Assembly: GCF_003254465.1 (NCBI RefSeq)
Contig: NZ_QDFI01000001.1
Span: forward strand, 62,001-126,000
DNA: 64,000 nucleotides
From: Meridianimarinicoccus zhengii
Lineage (GTDB): Bacteria > Pseudomonadota > Alphaproteobacteria > Rhodobacterales > Rhodobacteraceae
Reading direction: 5' to 3'
Shown: positions 1,897 to 30,023 of the stretch, piece after piece
Numbering within the stretch: position 1 is the stretch's first letter
Layout: each line of letters opens with the position of its first letter
Made by a program: the position numbers and the translations under genes
The notes under the pieces: model-generated
Seen by the model: only the letters and a program-made list of their open reading frames with translations
What the model was told of the DNA's origin: nothing
The model's database searches: none

Positions 1897-1922
1897 TCGC
1901 GGGTGTCCCCTTGGAAATGCAA

Positions 1923-1959
1923 GGGACCGGCCCCGGCAACGCGCACCGGAACCGGTCCC
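1923..1959 (-). promoter_or_regulatory. Hairpin in the dnaK-dnaJ intercistronic gap
   Basis: An inverted repeat, GGGACCGG (1923-1930) and CCGGTCCC (1952-1959), with further inner GC pairing, lies between the dnaK stop and the dnaJ start. There is no T-tract on the dnaJ side, so a partial attenuator or an mRNA-processing/stability hairpin that lowers dnaJ relative to dnaK is more likely than a full terminator. That role is inferred from position only. Confidence 0.45.
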
Positions 1960-1974
1960 CCCATGTCACCGCGC

Positions 1975-3891
1975 TCAGGAGGCGCGCTTGTCCTCGCCGA
2001 GGTCTTCGAAATCGGCATCCACGATGTCCTCGTCCGACCCGTTCGGGCCGTCGCCATCGTCATCGCCGTCCGATCCGCCCTCGGCGGTCTGCGCCTTGTA
2101 GATCGCTTCGCCCAGCTTCATGGACGCTTCCATGACGTTCTGGATGCCGGACTTGATCTTGGCCGCGTCGTCCTTCTCCAGCGCTTCTTCCAGCGCCGTG
2201 ATGGCGAACTCGATCGCCTCGACCGTGGTCGGATCGACCTTGTCGCCATGCTCTTCGAGCGACTTCTTGGTCGAATGGATCAGGCTTTCGGCCTGGTTGC
2301 GGGCTTCCACCAGCTCCTTGCGGGACTTGTCCGCCTCGGCATTGGCCTCCGCGTCCTTGACCATCTGTTCGATCTCGTCCTCGGTCAGGCCGCCCGACGC
2401 CTGGATCGTGATCTTCTGCTCCTTGCCGGTGCCCTTGTCCTTCGCGCTGACCGACACGATGCCGTCGGCGTTGATGTCGAAGGTCACCTCGATCTGCGGC
2501 ATGCCGCGCGGTGCGGGCGGAATCTGTTCAAGGTTGAACTGGGCCAGCATCTTGTTGTCCGACGCCATCTCGCGCTCCCCCTGGAAAACGCGGATCGTCA
2601 CGGCCGACTGGTTGTCCTCGGCGGTGGAGAAGATCTGCGATTTCTTCGTGGGGATCGTCGTGTTGCGGTCGATCAGGCGCGTGAACACCCCGCCCAGAGT
2701 CTCGATGCCAAGGCTCAGCGGCGTCACGTCGAGCAGGACCACGTCCTTCACGTCGCCCTGCAGCACACCCGCCTGGATCGCCGCACCCAGCGCCACGACT
2801 TCGTCCGGGTTGACGCCCTTGTGCGGTTCCTTGCCGAAGAACTTTGTGACCTCTTCCATCACCTTGGGCATGCGCGTCATGCCGCCGACCAGGACCACCT
2901 CGTCGATATCGCCCACGGACAGGCCCGCATCCTTCAGCGCCGCCTGGCACGGCTTGATCGACGCCTTGATGAGATCGCCCACAAGGCTTTCCAGCTTGGC
3001 GCGGGTCAGTTTCATGACCATGTGCAGCGGCTGACCGTTGCTGCCCATCGAGATGAACGGCTGGTTGATTTCCGTCTGGCTGGCCGAGGAGAGTTCGATC
3101 TTGGCCTTCTCGGCGGCTTCCTTCAGCCGCTGCAGGGCCATCTTGTCCTGCGTCAGGTCCACGCCGTGCTCTTTCTTGAACTCGCCGGCGAGGTAGTTGA
3201 CGATCCGCATGTCGAAGTCTTCACCGCCAAGGAACGTGTCCCCGTTGGTGGACTTCACCTCGAACAGCCCGTCGTCGATTTCCAGGATGGTCACGTCGAA
3301 CGTGCCGCCGCCAAGGTCATAGACGGCGATCGTCTTGGCCTCTTTCTTGTCGAGCCCGTAGGCCAGCGCGGCCGCGGTCGGTTCGTTGATGATCCGCAGC
3401 ACCTCGAGGCCCGCGATCTTGCCCGCGTCCTTGGTCGCCTGCCGCTGGGCGTCGTTGAAATAGGCGGGCACGGTGATGACGGCCTGCGTCACTTCCTCGC
3501 CAAGATAGCTTTCGGCGGTTTCCTTCATCTTGCCGAGGATGAACGCGGAAATCTGGCTGGGCGAATATTTCTCGCCGCGGGCTTCGACCCATGCGTCGCC
3601 ATTGCCACCATCGACGACCGTGAAGGGCAGGTTCTTCTTGTCCTTGGCGATGTCGCTGTCGTCGAAACGGCGCCCGATCAGGCGCTTGACGGCAAAGATG
3701 GTGTTGTCGGGGTTGGTGACGGCCTGGCGCTTGGCGGGCTGGCCGACCAGGCGTTCGTTTTCCGTGAAGGCGACGATGGAGGGCGTTGTACGCGCGCCTT
3801 CTGAATTCTCGATGACCCGGCCTTGCGACCCATCCATGATGGCGACGCAGGAGTTCGTGGTCCCGAGGTCGATACCGATGACTTTGCCCAT
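1975..3891 (-). CDS. dnaK: Chaperone protein DnaK (Hsp70)
   Basis: The 638-residue protein opens with the Hsp70 phosphate-1 loop [12 protein letters not shown]. The nucleotide-binding domain continues through the DLGGGTFD and [10 protein letters not shown] signatures, then the hydrophobic linker ([13 protein letters not shown]), the substrate-binding beta domain and the helical lid. It ends in an acidic tail rich in Asp and Gly followed by a short basic end. It is the ATP-dependent cytoplasmic folding chaperone working with DnaJ and GrpE. No grpE is in the window. A strong RpoH-type promoter lies about 100 bases upstream, so heat-shock induction is expected. Length and all signature motifs are standard. 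Confidence 0.99.
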
Positions 3892-3993
3892 GGCTTACCT
3901 TTCCTTGGCGATTGCGGGGATGGCCCGACTGCGGCGCCGTCCCCTATCCCGTGGCTGTTGACTGTGCCGGATGTCTCCGGCGGACTGCGGGGT

Positions 3994-4022
3994 ATATAAG
4001 CGCGGGGTCTGGGGCCTGCAAG
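3994..4022 (-). promoter_or_regulatory. RpoH (sigma-32) heat-shock promoter of dnaK
   Basis: Read on the minus strand, the -35 element CTTG (4022-4019) and the -10 element CTTATAT (4000-3994) are separated by 18 bases. This fits the alphaproteobacterial RpoH pattern CTTG, 17-18 bases, CYTATNT. The site lies about 100 bases upstream of the dnaK start and directly behind the divergent alkB gene. Confidence 0.75.
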
Positions 4023-4040
4023 AACGGGGGAAACGCGGAT

Positions 4041-4682
4041 TTGGCGACAAAACCGACATTTTCGGGCGCGGATGGCGCGGGCCGGCCGCTCGATCTGAAC
4101 GGTGTGCAGGTGCATCCGGGCCGGATCGCACCGGACGAACAGGCCGCACTCGTGGCGGATCTGCGCGCCGTGGCGGCCGCCGCACCGTTCTTCACGCCGA
4201 CGACGCCGCGCGGAAAGCCGATGTCGGTGCGCATGACATCCGCAGGGCGCTGCGGCTGGGTGTCTGACCGGGCGGGCTATCGCTACGACCCGCGCCACCC
4301 GTCGGGCGTGGACTGGCCGCCGATTCCCGCACGGCTGCTCGCGCTGTGGCGTGACCTGCTGCCCGCGTCCCGCGACCCCGATTGCTGTCTCGTGAACTTC
4401 TATACCGAAGGCGCGCGCATGGGCCTGCACCAGGACCGGGACGAGGCCGACCTGACCCAGCCGGTGCTGTCCGTCAGCCTGGGCGACGATGCGCTTTTCC
4501 GGGTCGGCGGCACGACGCGCGGCGGGCCGACCCGGTCGGTCTGGCTGCGGTCCGGCGATGTCGTCGTGCTCGCGGGGCCGGGGCGTATGGCCTATCACGG
4601 GATCGACCGCATCCGTTTCGGCACCAGCGCGCTTCTGCCGAAGGGCGGGCGGATCAACCTTACCTTGCGCATTGTCACATGA
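4041..4682 (+). CDS. alkB: AlkB-family Fe(II)/2-oxoglutarate DNA repair dioxygenase
   Basis: The 213-residue protein has the AlkB fold signatures: the metal-binding HQDRDE (HxD), a distal His in YHGIDRI, and the 2-oxoglutarate-binding RINLTLR tail. It should oxidatively demethylate 1-methyladenine and 3-methylcytosine. The frame is open further upstream to 3912, but that would run through the divergent dnaK promoter. A TTG at 4041, preceded by a GGGGGA purine run, gives a protein the size of E. coli AlkB (216 residues) and is preferred. The exact start is uncertain. The gene is divergent from dnaK and upstream of cysQ-kdsB. Confidence 0.88.
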   Translation: MATKPTFSGADGAGRPLDLNGVQVHPGRIAPDEQAALVADLRAVAAAAPFFTPTTPRGKPMSVRMTSAGRCGWVSDRAGYRYDPRHPSGVDWPPIPARLLALWRDLLPASRDPDCCLVNFYTEGARMGLHQDRDEADLTQPVLSVSLGDDALFRVGGTTRGGPTRSVWLRSGDVVVLAGPGRMAYHGIDRIRFGTSALLPKGGRINLTLRIVT

Positions 4683-4758
4683 CCCCATCCCGCGTATGAA
4701 GCTGGCATGTGTGCAGCCGCAGCATCGCGGCGCGTGTGTCGGTGATACGGGGGTGAAG

Positions 4759-5556
4759 ATGGATCATGCCAAGCTCGAAGGCGTGATGCGCCGGTTGGCG
4801 ATCGAAGCCGGTGCGCTCATCCTCGAGGTCTATCGCAGCTCCGATTTCGAAGTCCGCGCCAAGGGCGACGACAGCCCGGTGACCGAGGCGGACGAACGTG
4901 CTGACGCCCATATCTCCACCGGCCTGCGCGCGGCCTTTCCCGATGTCCTGCTCGTGACCGAGGAACAGGCGGGCACCCACGGCCAGACAGCGGACAGCTT
5001 CCTGATCGTCGATCCGCTGGACGGCACCAAGGAATTCGTCCAGCGCCGCGGCGATTTTACCGTGAACATCGCCTATGTGGAAAACGGCACACCGATCCGC
5101 GGCGTGGTCTACGCGCCCGCGAAGGACAGGCTGTTCTACACCCGCGCCGATGGCCGCACGGTGGAGGAAACGGGCCCCTTCGACCCCGACACGCCCGGCG
5201 CCACCCGCCCGGTGCAGGTCGGCACGCCCGACAATGACGCGCTGATGGTGGTGGCATCGAAAAGCCACCGGGACGCTGCCACCGACGCCTATATCGGCAA
5301 GTACGCCGTGCGCGACATGACCAGCGCCGGATCCTCGCTGAAGCTCTGCCTCGTCGCCACCGGGGAAGCCGATCTCTATCCGCGCCTCGGGCGCACGATG
5401 GAATGGGATACCGCCGCGGGCGATGCCGTGCTGCGCGGGGCAGGGGGCACGACAGTGCGCTTCGACGATCACACCCCGCTGACCTATGGCAAGCCGGGCT
5501 ACGAGAACCCGTTCTTCATCGCCCACGCACCGGGCGTAGCGCTGAAACCGGCATGA
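4759..5556 (+). CDS. cysQ: 3'(2'),5'-bisphosphate nucleotidase CysQ
   Basis: This is a 265-residue member of the inositol monophosphatase superfamily. It shows the metal-binding motifs EEQ, DPLDGTKEF and EWDTAAGDAVL in order, and the DGTKEF form is typical of CysQ. It hydrolyses 3'-phosphoadenosine 5'-phosphate left over from sulfate assimilation. The ATG at 4759 follows a GGGGGTGAAG stretch; a GTG two codons upstream is possible. The stop overlaps the kdsB start (ATGA), so the two genes are translationally coupled. The frame stays open further upstream into alkB, but that part has no family similarity. Confidence 0.92.
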   Translation: MDHAKLEGVMRRLAIEAGALILEVYRSSDFEVRAKGDDSPVTEADERADAHISTGLRAAFPDVLLVTEEQAGTHGQTADSFLIVDPLDGTKEFVQRRGDFTVNIAYVENGTPIRGVVYAPAKDRLFYTRADGRTVEETGPFDPDTPGATRPVQVGTPDNDALMVVASKSHRDAATDAYIGKYAVRDMTSAGSSLKLCLVATGEADLYPRLGRTMEWDTAAGDAVLRGAGGTTVRFDDHTPLTYGKPGYENPFFIAHAPGVALKPA

Positions 5557-6356
5557 GCGTCCTGATCGCCATCCCGGCGCGCTACGCCTCCACCCGCTAT
5601 CCGGGCAAGCCGCTGGTGCCGCTGCGCGGGCCGGACGGGGTGGCCCGGACCCTGATCGAACGGTCGTGGCGTGCCGCGATGTCGGTGCAGGGCGCGGATC
5701 GGGTGGTGGTGGCCACCGACGACGACCGCATCGCCGAGGCCGCCCGCGGCTTCGGGGCCGAGGTGGCCATGACCGACCCCGCCTGCGCCAACGGCACGGA
5801 ACGTTGCGCGGACCTTATCGACCGGCTCGATGTCGTGACCGAGATCGTCGTGAACCTCCAGGGCGACGCCCCGCTCACCCCGCCATGGTTCGTCGAGGAC
5901 CTGGTCGCAGCCCTGCGCGCCAACCCCGACGCGCAGGTGGCCACGCCGGTCCTGCGCTGCGACGGGCGCGCCCTGCGCGGCTTCCGCGACGACCGCGCGG
6001 CGGGGCGCGTCGGCGGCACCACCGCCGTCTTCGGCACGGACAGCCGCGCGCTCTATTTCTCCAAGGAAGTCATCCCCTACACCGGGCGCGACTATCCCGA
6101 CGACGCGGACACGCCCGTCTTCCACCATGTCGGTGTCTACGCCTATCGCCCGGACGCGCTGCGCGCCTACCGCGCCCTGCCCGAAGGACCGCTGGAACGG
6201 CTCGAAGGGCTCGAACAGCTCCGCTTCATGGAAAACGGCTGCTCCGTCCATTGCGTCGAGGTCGCGGCGCGCGGGCGCAGCTTCTGGGAACTCAACAATC
6301 CCGCGGATGTCGCCCGCATCGAAGCGATCCTCGCGGATGTGCCGGGTGCGGTCTGA
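5553..6356 (+). CDS. kdsB: 3-deoxy-manno-octulosonate cytidylyltransferase
   Basis: The 267-residue protein begins with the CMP-KDO synthetase signature IPARYASTRYPGKPL. It continues with ATDD, NLQGDAPL and the ALYFSK..IPY region that contacts nucleotide and sugar. It activates KDO as CMP-KDO for lipopolysaccharide inner-core assembly by WaaA, whose gene lies at 27,488-28,780. KdsD, the first enzyme of KDO synthesis, is at 10,994-11,959. The start overlaps the cysQ stop by four bases. The length is slightly above the E. coli enzyme (248 residues) and all motifs are intact. Confidence 0.96.
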   Translation: MSVLIAIPARYASTRYPGKPLVPLRGPDGVARTLIERSWRAAMSVQGADRVVVATDDDRIAEAARGFGAEVAMTDPACANGTERCADLIDRLDVVTEIVVNLQGDAPLTPPWFVEDLVAALRANPDAQVATPVLRCDGRALRGFRDDRAAGRVGGTTAVFGTDSRALYFSKEVIPYTGRDYPDDADTPVFHHVGVYAYRPDALRAYRALPEGPLERLEGLEQLRFMENGCSVHCVEVAARGRSFWELNNPADVARIEAILADVPGAV

Positions 6357-13608: not shown

Positions 13609-13974
13609 ATGCAGTTTCACCACCTTTCCGCCGCCCCGTCCGGCGACAGCGTCTGGTCCGACCGGACCGTCACGCTCACCGAGCGCTCCTTCGCACCGCC
13701 CGCACAGGCCATCGAGGTCTCCGACCCCGAGCCCGCCACCCGCGTGATGTTCCTGCGCCTGCGCGCCGGGTGGGACGAACCGGTCCACCCCTCGCCCATC
13801 CGGCAGAAGCTCGTGGTGCTTGCGGGCACCGTCCGCGTCACCGCCAGCGACGGCGCCGCCCGCGATCTCGGCCCCGGTGCCGTCTGGCACATGGAGGACA
13901 AGACCGGCCGCGGCCATCACACCCGCGTCATCGGCGACAGCGATTTCGAAGCCCTCGTCGTCCAGCTCGAATGA
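13609..13974 (+). CDS. Cupin-domain protein
   Basis: The 121-residue protein reads as a single small cupin barrel. An early segment VHPSPIRQKLVVLAGTVRVTA matches cupin motif 1 spacing, and GPGAVWHMEDKTGRGHHTRV matches motif 2. The metal-binding histidines are only partly conserved. Function is not assignable; small cupins of this type bind sugars or small acids or act as sensors. It is preceded by a short promoter-sized gap and followed by the 11-bp repeat arrays. Confidence 0.7.
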   Translation: MQFHHLSAAPSGDSVWSDRTVTLTERSFAPPAQAIEVSDPEPATRVMFLRLRAGWDEPVHPSPIRQKLVVLAGTVRVTASDGAARDLGPGAVWHMEDKTGRGHHTRVIGDSDFEALVVQLE

Positions 13975-13990: not shown

Positions 13991-14034
13991 GAGTCATATG
14001 GGAGTCATATGAAAGTCATACGCGACTCATACGC
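13991..14034 (+). repeat. Four-unit 11-bp tandem array, GAGTCATACGC type (copy 1)
   Basis: Units are GAGTCATATGG, GAGTCATATGA, AAGTCATACGC and GACTCATACGC, with TCATA recurring at exactly 11-base steps. The array lies between the end of the cupin gene and the ABC1-kinase gene and reads in the same direction as both. A homologous array lies on the minus strand at 29,120-29,163. An 11-bp period is not a multiple of three, so it is not a peptide repeat. It matches about one helical turn, as for a protein bound cooperatively to one face of the DNA. Confidence 0.85.
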
Positions 14035-14104: not shown

Positions 14105-14148
14105 GTACCGACAAGACTCCTACAAAACTCCGACAGGATTCCGACACG
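14105..14148 (+). repeat. Diverged 11-bp tandem array, ACTCCGACAGG type
   Basis: Four units of exactly 11 bases: GTACCGACAAG, ACTCCTACAAA, ACTCCGACAGG and ATTCCGACACG. The core CCGAC/CCTAC recurs at 14107, 14118, 14129 and 14140 in register. The unit resembles the GACTCATACGC unit of the nearby array (shared ACTC and AC positions), but the two arrays are not in phase with each other. It ends about 65 bases before the ABC1-kinase start. Confidence 0.6.
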
Positions 14149-15609: not shown

Positions 15610-15993
15610 ATGATGGCGGAGACTGTCATGTATCTGAAGGTGACGCTCGCCGGCCCCGACAATGTCGATCAACTGTCCCGCCGCGTGGTGGACGACATCT
15701 TGACGCTGCCCGATATAGAGGATGCCGAGTTGGTGCGCCTGCCGGCGGCGCCGGGCGAGAAGGGGCTGATCGAACAGATCGGCACCATCGGGGTCAGCAT
15801 CCTCAGCGCGGGCGGCGGCGAAATCCTTCTCGACTACCTCAAGACCACGTTGTCCCAGATGGCCGCCGGGCCGTCCGAAAAGACGATCATCGTCGAACTC
15901 GACGGCAAGCGCGCCGAGTTGCGCGGCACCATGAGCGACGCGGAGTTCGCTGCCACGACCGACCGCATCCTGTCGATGATGAAGGGTGGCTGA
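15610..15993 (+). CDS. Small EACC1-like protein partnered with a caspase-like protease
   Basis: A protein of about 127 residues with N-terminal strands (LKVTLAGP; DAELVRLPAAPGEKG), a central hydrophobic helix pair (GVSILSAGGGEILLDYLKTTL), then IIVELDGKRAELRG and a final helix. This layout, including the PGEKG turn and the wLK-type helix before a valine-rich strand, matches effector-associated constant component 1 (EACC1). That family is known mainly from genes next to caspase or trypsin effectors in bacterial conflict systems. The call is from pattern memory without a search. A GGAGG at 15594 favours the ATG at 15610; 15628 (MYLKVT) has its own GGAG and is a good alternative. It ends 2 bases before the caspase start. 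Confidence 0.6.
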   Translation: MMAETVMYLKVTLAGPDNVDQLSRRVVDDILTLPDIEDAELVRLPAAPGEKGLIEQIGTIGVSILSAGGGEILLDYLKTTLSQMAAGPSEKTIIVELDGKRAELRGTMSDAEFAATTDRILSMMKGG

Positions 15994-15995
15994 TC

Positions 15996-17597
15996 ATGGC
16001 CCGCCACGGTCTGCTCATCGGCGTTCAGGACTACGGCGGTGGCGGGGACATGACCCCGCTATCCTGTCCCCGCGCCGATGTGGACCTGATGGCGCAGGTC
16101 CTGCGCGACCCCGATTGCACCGAGGACGTGTACAACGTCATGCCCGTGCTCGACCCGACCTACAGCGATGTGACCCGCGAACTTGCCGCGTTCCTCGACG
16201 TGGTCAAACGCAACGACACGGTGCTGATCTATTTCTCGGGTCACGGGATGCGGGACGATGACGGCAACCTCTACCTGTGCATGAAGGATTCCAAGGGCGA
16301 CAGGCTCGACCTGACGGCACTGTCCTTCGACAGGCTGGCGCGGAACCTTCAGGCCATGAACCTGCGGCGCGTCCTCATCATCCTTGACTGCTGCTACAGC
16401 GGCGCGGCGGGGCTGAAGGACAGCGTGCGCAGCAAGCTTTTCGAGCCCGAGAGGGTGAATCCGGACGGAACGGGCATGTTCGTGCTGTCCTCCGCCGGTC
16501 AGGCCGAAACTTCCAAGGAGGGCGGCTGCCACAGCATATTCACCGAGGTGCTGGTCGAAGGCATGCGGTCCGGGGCCGCGGACAATGACGATGATGGGCG
16601 GATATCGGTCGCCGAGATCGCCGAATACGTCGCCCACGAGGTTCCGAAGCGCGCCGACCGGCAGCGTCCGCAGATCAGCACCAAGGCCGCGTCGGGCACC
16701 TTCGTCGTCGCAGTAAACGCCGCCCGCAAACGCGCCGCCGCGCAGGCCGAAACCGCGAAGGCCGCGGCGGACTGGATGGCGGCGGGCCGCGCGCGCCTGC
16801 TGGATGCACGGCGCGACAACGACGTGACGCTTGAATTCCTGCACTCGGTCGAAAGCTGGATCGAGGCCTGCGACGCGCCCGACACGGACGATCCGAAGCT
16901 GCTGGCGCTGCGTGACTACGGGGACCGGTCCATCGGGCTGATGGAATTCGCCAAGCGGTGGCGCGCGGAGGTGGCGAAGCCTGCGCCCGTGGAACCAACC
17001 GCCACCGTGCCGGCGCCCATGCCCGAACCGATACCGACCGCACCCGGTGCCGAAGCGCAGGCTCCGGAACCGGAGGCGATGGCCGCGAAGGCCCCCGATG
17101 CCGCCTTGGGCGAACCGAATACACCGTCAGTGCCAGAATCGGACGGCACTTGGGGCGATTTTCTTCTCGGCCTGTTGATCCTGCTGGTTCCGGTCCTTGT
17201 CGTGGGCGCAGTGGGATACTTCTGGACCAGCTTCCTGCTGCACGGCACGACTGTCTGGACCCATGCACCCAGTTCACTGGTTCCGCCGCCGCCCTATCTC
17301 GATCCCGACCTGCCACCGGCGACCGTGGCGGACCATTGGCTCGGCAAGCTGTTCTTCGTGGGACTGATGGGTTTCATCTTCTTCATCCCGGTGACGCTTG
17401 TCGTGACGTTCGTCGTGCGGCTTGTGCTGGACGATCTCGGGTTCATCGCCACGGCCGTGCTCGTGTCGATCGTGCTACTTCTGGGCGGGCTGGCCCATGT
17501 CTACATCGCAGCCCCTGTCCCGTGGTCAGAGCGCTTCGACGCCGTCTACCTGTTTCTTTACAACGACTTCACGGGCCCTGTGCCCGCCGAGGAATAA
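15996..17597 (+). CDS. Membrane-anchored caspase-like protease (peptidase C14 family)
   Basis: The 533-residue protein begins with a caspase-like domain (about residues 1-255): GLLIGVQDY, the catalytic His83 in YFSGHG, and [10 protein letters not shown] with Cys133 in the position of the metacaspase DSCHSG cysteine. A helical, Ala-rich segment follows, then a Pro/Ala/Glu-rich linker (about 330-380). The C-terminal third has three to four hydrophobic helices ([56 protein letters not shown]) and a short tail. The protease would sit on one side of the inner membrane. It is paired with the EACC1-like gene 2 bases upstream. Its last 40 bases overlap the end of convergent rlmN. Confidence 0.85.
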
Positions 17598-29031: not shown

Positions 29032-29119
29032 GGGAAAACCTTTCCGTTGCCACCTGTGCGCAGACCATTGTGCATTTGCGGCATGGGGTCAAGGAAGGCG
29101 GGGCGGGGCCGTGTGCGTG

Positions 29120-29163
29120 GCGTATGACTCGCGTATGACTCTTGTATGACTCCCGTATGACTC
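29120..29163 (-). repeat. Four-unit 11-bp tandem array, GAGTCATACGC type (copy 2)
   Basis: On the minus strand the units are GAGTCATACGG, GAGTCATACAA, GAGTCATACGC and GAGTCATACGC. On the plus strand GTATGACTC recurs at exact 11-base steps. Unit by unit it matches copy 1 at 13,991 in the same order, so the two are homologous elements. It sits between the 3' end of the GntR-family gene and the DUF4170 gene, again oriented with the flanking genes. Confidence 0.85.
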
Positions 29164-29291: not shown

Positions 29292-30023
29292 TCAGCCCGT
29301 CAGGCCGACGGGCTGGAACAGGTAGCCGTCGAAGGCCGGGTCGTCGACGTCGGACAGGGCCATGAGCGTTTCGCGGACATTGCCGAGATGGCGCCACATG
29401 GCGGTCTGGGCGGCCTCCGGGTTGCGGGCCTGAAGCGCCTGGAGGATCGCCTGGTGGTCGTCGAGCCACGCGCGGCGGTAGGTCGTCTCGAATATCCGGC
29501 TGTGCAGCCGCGCCCACATCGGGCTGTGTTCGCGCCGCCGCCACAGATCCTCCACCATGTCCACCAGCACGGAATTCTGCGTCGCCTCGGCGATCAGGCG
29601 GTGAAAGGCGCGGTCGCCGGAATAGTCGGCGCGGCCCGGATCGAGATCGGCGCGTTCCATGTCCAGCGTGTCGCGCATGCGCAGGATGTCGTTCTTGGTG
29701 ACCATGCGCGCGGCGAACCCGGCGATGTCGGATTCGACGAGTTGCCGCGCCTGAAGCAGTTCGAACGGGCCGATATCGTCGCGTACGGGCCCGCCCGCGG
29801 CATGGGGATCGTCCGAGATGTAGATGCCCGAGCCCTTGCGGACCTCTACCGCGCCTTCGATCTCCAGCAGGATCAGCGCCTCGCGCACGAGGGAGCGGGA
29901 CACGTCGAGCCGGTCGGACAGGCCGCGTTCGGGCATCAGCCGGTCGCCGGGACCGAGCCGTTCCGCCGCGATCAGGTCGCGGATGGCGCGCGCGACCTCC
30001 TGGTACTTGCGGGCGGTGCTCAT
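29292..30023 (-). CDS. GntR/FadR-type regulator, probably UxuR/ExuR-like
   Basis: The 243-residue protein has an N-terminal winged helix (KYQEVARAIRDLIAAERLGPGD, LPERGLSDRLDVSRSLVREAL) and a C-terminal all-helical FCD effector domain with metal-ligand-like residues (GDRAFHRLIAEAT; DDHQAIL). FadR-subfamily regulators with this arrangement control hexuronate genes. It overlaps the uidA stop (ATGA) as the last gene of the dctP-uidA unit, so it likely represses its own locus in response to glucuronate. A palindrome of UxuR type lies in the divergent promoter at 32,911. Confidence 0.87.
   Translation of the reverse strand: MSTARKYQEVARAIRDLIAAERLGPGDRLMPERGLSDRLDVSRSLVREALILLEIEGAVEVRKGSGIYISDDPHAAGGPVRDDIGPFELLQARQLVESDIAGFAARMVTKNDILRMRDTLDMERADLDPGRADYSGDRAFHRLIAEATQNSVLVDMVEDLWRRREHSPMWARLHSRIFETTYRRAWLDDHQAILQALQARNPEAAQTAMWRHLGNVRETLMALSDVDDPAFDGYLFQPVGLTG

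Follow-up and report, generated by a model that had tools for sequence, protein, structure and literature searches.

Arrays of four 11-bp direct repeats, candidate protein-binding sites, keep their places in Rhodobacteraceae genomes while their spelling differs between species

The pho box, which is read by PhoB and related response regulators of the OmpR family, consists of 11-bp direct repeats in a row, each comprising a 7-bp core, CTGTCAT, and a 4-bp spacer. The MraZ operator is composed of tandem boxes with a 10-bp period, which are bound by one oligomer at one target operon, and the nucleoid-occlusion sites of Noc and SlmA are not known to be direct-repeat arrays. Dispersed chromosomal sites of one protein are described for Noc and for SlmA in the accessible parts of the respective reports, as is a switch of DNA specificity within the ParB/Noc family (PMC4331003, PMC4117426, PMC7383237). 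The uptake sequences of the Neisseriaceae are, in the accessible part of their description, single 10-mers with ~1900–6000 copies per genome, often arranged as inverted pairs; their spelling is lineage-specific, they occupy permissive intergenic and coding sites, and one protein reads them (PMC3630211).

The window, the whole stretch of 64,000 nucleotides of Meridianimarinicoccus zhengii DNA analysed here, contains arrays of 11-bp direct repeats belonging to a family that is dispersed over the genome. With a probability of roughly 0.6, we read such an array as a 44-bp double-stranded DNA site for a putative sequence-specific DNA-binding protein, whose specificity would drift with the sites following. 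No report of such arrays was found in the literature searched, which mostly lacked subscription papers, nor in the accessible part of PMC2864571.

Anatomy and abundance of the arrays

The target array is located on the minus strand at 29120–29163 and consists, read from 29163 to 29120, of the four 11-bp units GAGTCATACGG GAGTCATACAA GAGTCATACGC GAGTCATACGC. It is flanked by two minus-strand genes, a DUF4170 gene (PF13773; 28783–29031) at a distance of 88 bp and, on the other side, a GntR-family regulator gene (29292–30023), whose end is 128 bp away. A −35 promoter-like TTGACC (29087–29092, minus strand) is found 27 bp from the 3′ end of the array, and a putative −10 element, AATGGT (29064–29069, minus strand), which matches the consensus weakly, would be spaced 17 bp from it. 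A first array of the same family, GAGTCATATGG GAGTCATATGA AAGTCATACGC GACTCATACGC, spans 13991–14034 on the plus strand, between a cupin-like gene (13609–13974, plus strand), which ends 16 bp ahead of it, and a downstream ABC1/UbiB-like gene (PF03109; 14215–15537, plus strand). A third, related array of other spelling, GACTCCTACAA AACTCCGACAG GATTCCGACAC (14115–14147, plus strand), starts 80 bp past the first array, between it and the ABC1/UbiB-like gene. The names GntR and cupin are presumptive, given from the appearance of the sequences rather than from a family search. Positions 15996–17597 of the window hold a caspase-like gene, judged from its sequence to be of the peptidase C14 type, with a small gene (15610–15993) ahead of it.

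The original prediction, an array at 29120–29163 with a homologous array 15 kb off on the opposite strand, is confirmed, and the minus-strand copy is indeed the more regular of the two. The two arrays are the same element, yet the unit-for-unit match that had been claimed for them is only approximate, since 39 of 44 bases are equal.

The paired core GAGTCATNNNNGAGTCAT occurs exactly 34 times in the window genome (G000; 4.6 Mb, 220 contigs), compared with 0 occurrences of the reversed control pattern; when up to two mismatches are allowed, 130 occurrences compare with 3 of the control. The arrays thus occur far above chance. A profile of the TCATAY spelling, R1, built from 19 of 22 scanned arrays, yielded 57 matches in G000 (E ≤ 0.1), and a unit scan of 55 G000 stretches resulted in 58 arrays, the target included. 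The number of units per array ranges from 3 to 7 in G000, with four as the commonest number, and in the congener G004 it is exactly four in 27 of 31 arrays and five in the other 4. A second model, R2, for the TCCGAY spelling, was built from 26 of 40 arrays.

The information per position and slot was 0.76–1.48 bits within the 44 bp and 0.11–0.40 bits in the flanks (10-bp bins). Aligning the copies with their flanks, as the original prediction had proposed, revealed sharp boundaries without conserved sequence outside the block. The order of the slots was non-random in all five genomes analysed (z of 15.8, 13.3, 3.5, 23.7 and 9.1 for G000, G003, G006, G004 and G002, respectively, with 0, 0, 1, 0 and 0 of 300 permutations reaching the observed value): between arrays, units of the same slot resemble each other more than units of different slots, a signal to which weaker edge units may contribute, as the frame of each array was set to the best-scoring four units and this makes edge units appear weaker. 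For the TCCGAY spelling, slot 1 tends to start with CGG or GGG, slots 2 and 3 with AAG, and slot 4 with AAT or TTT (TAG in G002). The shared unit order and the block of four that had been proposed from the two window arrays are therefore supported by the slot-order test in five genomes and by the fall of information at the block edges.

A structured RNA element was rejected, as four folded arrays showed no stable fold (z-scores of −1.13, −0.18, 0.61 and 0.08) and no Rfam family matched within the window. Neither a palindrome nor terminal inverted repeats were seen in the four folded arrays and the unconserved flanks. A curved-DNA element was likewise dismissed, because the arrays exhibited no excess of predicted bend over shuffled sequence; as calculated from wedge values, 35 of 55, 15 of 27, 5 of 12, 18 of 31 and 1 of 9 arrays in the five sets were bent above their own shuffle mean.

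Position, orientation and spelling between species

For the comparison within the genus, we fetched 27 arrays from G003 (its R1 list), 12 from G006 (picked by two spellings), 31 from G004 and 9 from G002, which is only part of the arrays of each genome, and we took as counterparts arrays that project onto each other through flanking alignments within 150 bp, mostly under 40 bp. Sites matching a G000 array are occupied by 19 of the 27 G003, 12 of the 31 G004 and 8 of the 12 G006 arrays, and 24 of 55 G000 arrays have a counterpart in at least one species. The original prediction hinged on the copies having a common unit order or orientation. The unit order is common; an orientation common to all copies relative to genes was not found, but at matching sites orientation is fixed, being identical in 61 of 61 links from seven species pairs (G000–G003 20, G000–G004 12, G000–G006 8, G003–G004 10, G003–G006 7, G004–G006 3 and G002–G004 1). 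At least three of these links are paralogous, with L155, L141 and L208 each matching two places. L141 and L155 are G000 arrays that adjoin related BrnA-antitoxin-like genes, and alignable counterparts exist in G003 (L208), G004 (L286) and G214 (L351).

At the target site, five of the seven genus members, namely G000, G003 (L317), G006 (L318), G004 (L322) and G002 (L320), carry an array of four units, spelled in the respective dialect, ahead of the DUF4170 gene. The 3′ end of the array is 27 bp from TTGACC in G000, G003 and G006 and 15 bp from it in G004, and the G002 array is 17 bp from TTGCGC; as the shift amounts to about one 11-bp unit, the helical phase is roughly kept. G005 and G001 exhibit only imperfect unit-like stretches at this site, which may be remnants or another dialect. 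Similarly, a site at a pair of ABC-transporter genes (L130) is occupied by arrays in G000, G003 and G006 and by four units in the G004 dialect in G004, and no array was found there in G005 or G001.

Searching 394 genomes of the family at E ≤ 0.001 gave R1 matches in 13 and R2 matches in 11, with G110 in both, and hence 23 genomes, some of which rest on a single weak match, a chance match among 394 genomes being possible at this threshold; copy numbers in these genomes are lower bounds, since no more than 16 candidates were scored per genome. The inspected arrays mostly comprise four units again, and other genera keep arrays at shared sites in different dialects. The gene pair for MAPEG and dihydrolipoyl dehydrogenase flanks an array in G217 and G374 (TCCGAY) and in Rhodovulum marinum (TCATAY), the pair of arfB and a queuosine-precursor transporter gene flanks one in G110, G179 and the Rhodobacter MAG MO_135, and the 3′ end of gltD is accompanied by an array in G000, R. 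marinum, G243, G230 and a contig filed under Pseudodesulfovibrio. Side and orientation were the same in 75 cross-genus flanking-gene matches and different in 14; these rows are non-independent, with 4 of the 75 representing one strain or MAG twice (G192/L080, G025/L110), and the loci L180, L188, L233, L349 and L350 were not part of the comparison, nor were records from M. roseus or from outside the Rhodobacteraceae.

The contig filed under Pseudodesulfovibrio (L089) carries its Rhodobacteraceae-type array beside a gltD whose protein identity to the window genome is 79%, and it is probably misassigned. In G192, the arrays L181 and L189, located on two contigs and both near a contig end, have 30-bp flanks that are identical to the left and to the right, and TTAACC is present on either side; here the array may belong to a larger repeat, or one place may have been assembled twice. 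A scan of a wide collection returned 54 loci, from which Bacteroidales, a MAG and other mostly low-GC records were left out, as these matches look like separate minisatellites. They include 11-bp tandem repeats such as AAGTCATATGT or AAGTCATAYTG in the MAG CALZTP01 (L061, L070, L082, L108, L112) and in Prevotella/Bacteroidales (L078, L091, L099), which are perhaps unrelated minisatellites. Plasmid records yielded no match with two 44-bp queries, a weak test given such short queries.

The units are spelled species-wide in dialects: GAGTCATAYGN in G000 and M. roseus, for the most part GACTCCTACAR in G006, where the spelling is mixed, AAGTCCGATGA in G004 and AAGTCCGAYRA in G002. G003 is a congener matching M. 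roseus TG-679, and the arrays of six G003 contigs are shared with TG-679 records. At E ≤ 0.1, R1 matched 27 times in G003, 6 times in G006, once in G001 and not at all in G002, G004 and G005. The TCCGAT pair pattern was detected at 86 places in G004 (control 1) and 67 in G002 (control 0), and elsewhere at 2 places in G000 (control 1), 6 in G006, 2 each in G003 and G005 and 1 in G001 (controls 0). Pairs of GACTCCTACA occur at 15 places in G006, 12 in G000 and 6 in G003, and at none in the other four genomes. A cluster of CcrM methylation sites was rejected, as GANTC is present in the GAGTC and GACTC dialects only and the AAGTCCGA and GTGTCATA dialects lack it.

Many arrays of G000 and G003 are mosaic, with TCATAY in the inner and TCCTAC or TCCGAC in the outer units. 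For both genomes together, spelling other than TCATAY was observed in 54 of 164 outer slots versus 16 of 164 inner slots (odds ratio 4.5, P = 4e-7; slot totals tallied by hand, the class without TCATAY including four cells scored as 'other' or 'no unit'). The series TCCGAC, TCCTAC, TCATAC takes a single base per step, and its middle form is the commonest spelling in G006. A tree of one locus, unrooted and built without G002, separates G000, G003 and G006 from G004, G005 and G001. We infer that the dialects changed in the direction and order of this series.

Matching arrays of G000 and G004 have an identity of 54% (60% when shifted by one unit to the best fit), compared with a mean of 74% between the same G000 arrays and others of their own genome, the own-genome value being higher in 10 of 10 pairs. 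The corresponding values for G000 and G006 are 64.5% and 74.3% (higher within the genome in 7 of 8 pairs). For the close pair G000 and G003, they are 78.6% and 74.6%, with the own-genome value higher in 8 of 20 pairs; here arrays are more alike at matching sites, which is what plain inheritance would give. These comparisons are based on hand-made pair lists, and one of the 20 G000–G003 pairs (L117/L200) failed a stricter positional test. Because the arrays were collected by dialect-specific searches, other dialects were missed and the similarity within a genome is overestimated; that sites coincide between species is independent of this mode of collection.

These data bear on two alternative explanations. 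A functionless tandem repeat that homogenises itself through slippage or inter-array gene conversion would produce the excess of within-genome over cross-species similarity at matching sites seen with G004 and G006, a signature of concerted evolution, and would be consistent with the arrays of five to seven units. We nevertheless regard it as very unlikely: four units are the rule, slot differences are similarly ordered across dialects, the intermediates are single-base steps with lagging edges, and an array is kept within valS without conservation of the protein sequence. A mobile or copy-spreading intergenic repeat of the REP or MITE kind, inserted as a 44-bp block, is disfavoured and appears highly improbable. 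Its many similar copies, sharp edges and common unit order would be explained, as would the two G192 arrays sharing flanks beyond the block and the 31 of 55 G000 arrays that have no counterpart among those fetched from other species. However, arrays keep their position and orientation from species to species and across genera, dialects differ at matching sites, palindromes and conserved flanks are lacking, and the mosaic arrays appear altered unit by unit. The suggestion that the element spreads or is maintained as a block thus stands for maintenance, with positional orthologs in several species, and not for spreading, as there is no conserved flank and the shared arrays are vertical.

Placement along the chromosome and within genes

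Based on genes called with a custom codon-usage finder, 56 of the 58 G000 arrays lie outside predicted genes in loci that are 85.5% coding (binomial P = 1e-44). Relative to their neighbours, 27 of the 58 are sense to both, 10 antisense, 12 convergent and 7 divergent, and 2 are inside a gene. The sense direction between co-oriented genes that had been noted earlier therefore holds for both window arrays (DUF4170 and GntR on the minus strand, cupin and ABC1/UbiB on the plus strand), but not genome-wide. Among the 31 G004 arrays, 8 are sense, 8 antisense, 4 convergent, 10 divergent and 1 inside, and 9 of 21 R. marinum arrays lie between convergent genes. The median distance to the facing gene end and gene start was 20 and 64 bp in G000, 39 and 75 bp in G003, 22 and 89 bp in G004, and 27 and 155 bp in R. 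marinum. A gene end is found within 40 bp of a fraction of 0.64, 0.44, 0.47 and 0.67 of the arrays, respectively, versus 0.16–0.18 for length-weighted controls; with per-gap controls this bias is gone in G003 (0.44 vs 0.44) and G004 (0.47 vs 0.43).

The proximity to gene ends raises the possibility of a protein-assisted transcription terminator or insulator, in which the array would be followed by a T-rich patch. TTT at +3 to +10 past the array is enriched accordingly (33 of 134 arrays versus 59 of 2010 control windows), in all four sets the arrays are nearer to facing gene ends than to starts and exceed the length-weighted controls, and the convergent share in R. marinum would fit as well. 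On the other hand, G004 exhibits no orientation preference, with its 10 of 31 arrays in divergent gaps, and the gene-end bias is absent in G003 and G004 when measured against per-gap controls, so that we judge this explanation distinctly unlikely.

A broad transcription-factor regulon, for example of an OmpR/PhoB-type response regulator with an operator of four 11-bp direct repeats (7-bp core and 4-bp spacer), is unlikely as well, though it deserves some weight. The architecture resembles the pho box, and the target array keeps a fixed distance to TTGACC in three species and is shifted by about one turn in two more. Furthermore, the genes starting beside G000 arrays, as identified by Pfam, include leuS, thrS, serS, argG, lepA, purA and serA, and branched-chain amino-acid transporter-like genes flank one G003 array. 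Yet both orientations occur, two sites are inside genes, the convergent placement recurs in G000 and R. marinum, and the spelling of the pho box is unlike every dialect seen. A TTGAC box reading away within 80 bp downstream was detected for only 4 of 55 G000 arrays, and the 12 convergent arrays among the 56 intergenic ones have no downstream gene to control; for these two reasons a simple regulon does not fit all arrays. A promoter element in general was rejected, as TTGAC boxes are near few arrays.

The neighbouring genes are mixed housekeeping genes. Among 50 of them in G000 (48 starting beside an array and 2 containing one), four encode tRNA synthetases according to Pfam, the leucyl-, threonyl- and seryl-tRNA synthetase genes starting beside the arrays L120, L143 and L148 and valS containing L139; this share would suggest an enrichment above the genomic share, an excess noticed post hoc. 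On the 4.0-Mb replicon of G374, 16 arrays (E < 0.01) showed no departure from random spacing (largest gap P = 0.81, spacing P = 0.21), and both contigs of this genome carry arrays. From these 16 arrays on one replicon, where base skew was sampled, and from the two window arrays pointing in opposite directions only 15 kb apart, a replication-oriented site was provisionally rejected.

Arrays also reside inside coding sequence. The valS gene carries an in-frame array in the same loop, between FAEMNGV and NRWI, in four species from two genera (G000, G003, G004 and G408 of another genus; L139:2480–2523, L194:2479–2522, L283:2469–2512 and L354), and a photolyase-related gene carries one in G000, G003 and G006. 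In both genes the frame is kept and the residues differ by dialect, and in single alignments the loops bearing the arrays were 12 residues (valS) and 6 residues (photolyase-related gene) longer than in solved homologs. Arrays kept with differing residues argue for a constraint on the DNA. The demand hence seems to act on the DNA and not on RNA or protein, with the in-gene arrays as its strongest sign.

Dialects and permissive sites are also features of the Neisseriaceae uptake sequences, as far as the accessible part of their description goes (PMC3630211), and would be expected of a species-specific DNA uptake sequence. With about 58 four-unit copies in place of ~1900–6000 single 10-mers, an orientation conserved site by site and a tandem arrangement, we give this interpretation next to no likelihood.

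A putative protein-read site and its relation to known systems

In the reading we favour, that of a site for a DNA-binding protein, one putative subunit would occupy each 11-bp turn, over four successive turns and all on one face of the helix. Like subunits bound side by side to one face of the DNA would require direct repeats spaced by one turn, the inner units being the best conserved. About sixty such sites are distributed over the genome, mostly intergenic and occasionally within genes, in permissive loops, and many of them are old and vertically inherited, with fixed places and directions. The preferred unit of the putative protein would have changed along lineages and most sites would have followed by point changes, within the genus from TCCGAY via TCCTAC to TCATAY, inner units first and edge units lagging. 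A protein of shifting specificity would, through selection, cause parallel respelling at fixed sites that begins with the inner units, whereas block copying would swap whole arrays and slippage would alter the number of units, and neither is seen as a rule. Gene conversion between arrays is possible as a partial contribution. Several observations weigh against the favoured reading: the two dialect models reach only 23 of 394 family genomes, 31 of 55 G000 arrays lack a counterpart among those fetched, G005 and G001 are without an array at one site, and matching arrays of the close pair G000 and G003 behave as under plain inheritance.

From this pattern we infer that a protein reads the array, that four subunits would bind and that its role would be chromosome-wide. 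Among its putative tasks, we rank chromosome-wide architecture or insulation ahead of a broad regulon; the control of one pathway is not what we would expect. If true, dozens of sites that co-evolve with one protein, at places fixed across genera, would constitute a natural experiment in genome-wide change of specificity without loss of targets, with the single-base intermediates TCCGAC, TCCTAC and TCATAC present in living species. A global chromosome factor would thereby be revealed in a major group of marine bacteria, and the valS arrays suggest that demands at the DNA level shape a loop of an essential protein.

Compared with the pho box, the arrays share the 11-bp direct-repeat layout, and GTCATA is common to the pho box and the TCATAY dialect. 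In contrast, the array cores are GAGTCAT, GACTCCT and AAGTCCG, none of them CTGTCAT, and TCCGAY and TCCTAC are unrelated in spelling; moreover, many arrays are not upstream of genes, and four units are the rule. Single GTGTCAT units are present in G117. The MraZ operator resembles the arrays in its several direct repeats about one turn apart and differs from them in that the arrays have an 11-bp period and dozens of sites. Like the uptake sequences, as far as the accessible description of these extends, the arrays are genome-wide, have their own spelling in each lineage and occupy permissive intergenic and coding sites; they differ in being 44 bp long, tandem and present in ~58 copies. As described in the accessible parts of the Noc and SlmA reports, the sites of these proteins are likewise dispersed over the chromosome.

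Taken together, it is conceivable, at slightly less than even odds, that Rhodobacteraceae possess an undescribed chromosome-wide DNA-binding system, with four in-phase 11-bp turns at sites shared across genera and even inside an essential gene, whose dialect would switch repeatedly as dozens of sites follow suit. Such a system would be the equivalent, in bacteria, of a genome-organising factor that evolves fast. Since the core and placement of the pho box, the number and form of the uptake sequences and the kind of site used by Noc and SlmA each fail to match, we claim no known family for the array and file it under the broad kind of genome-wide DNA sites read by a protein.
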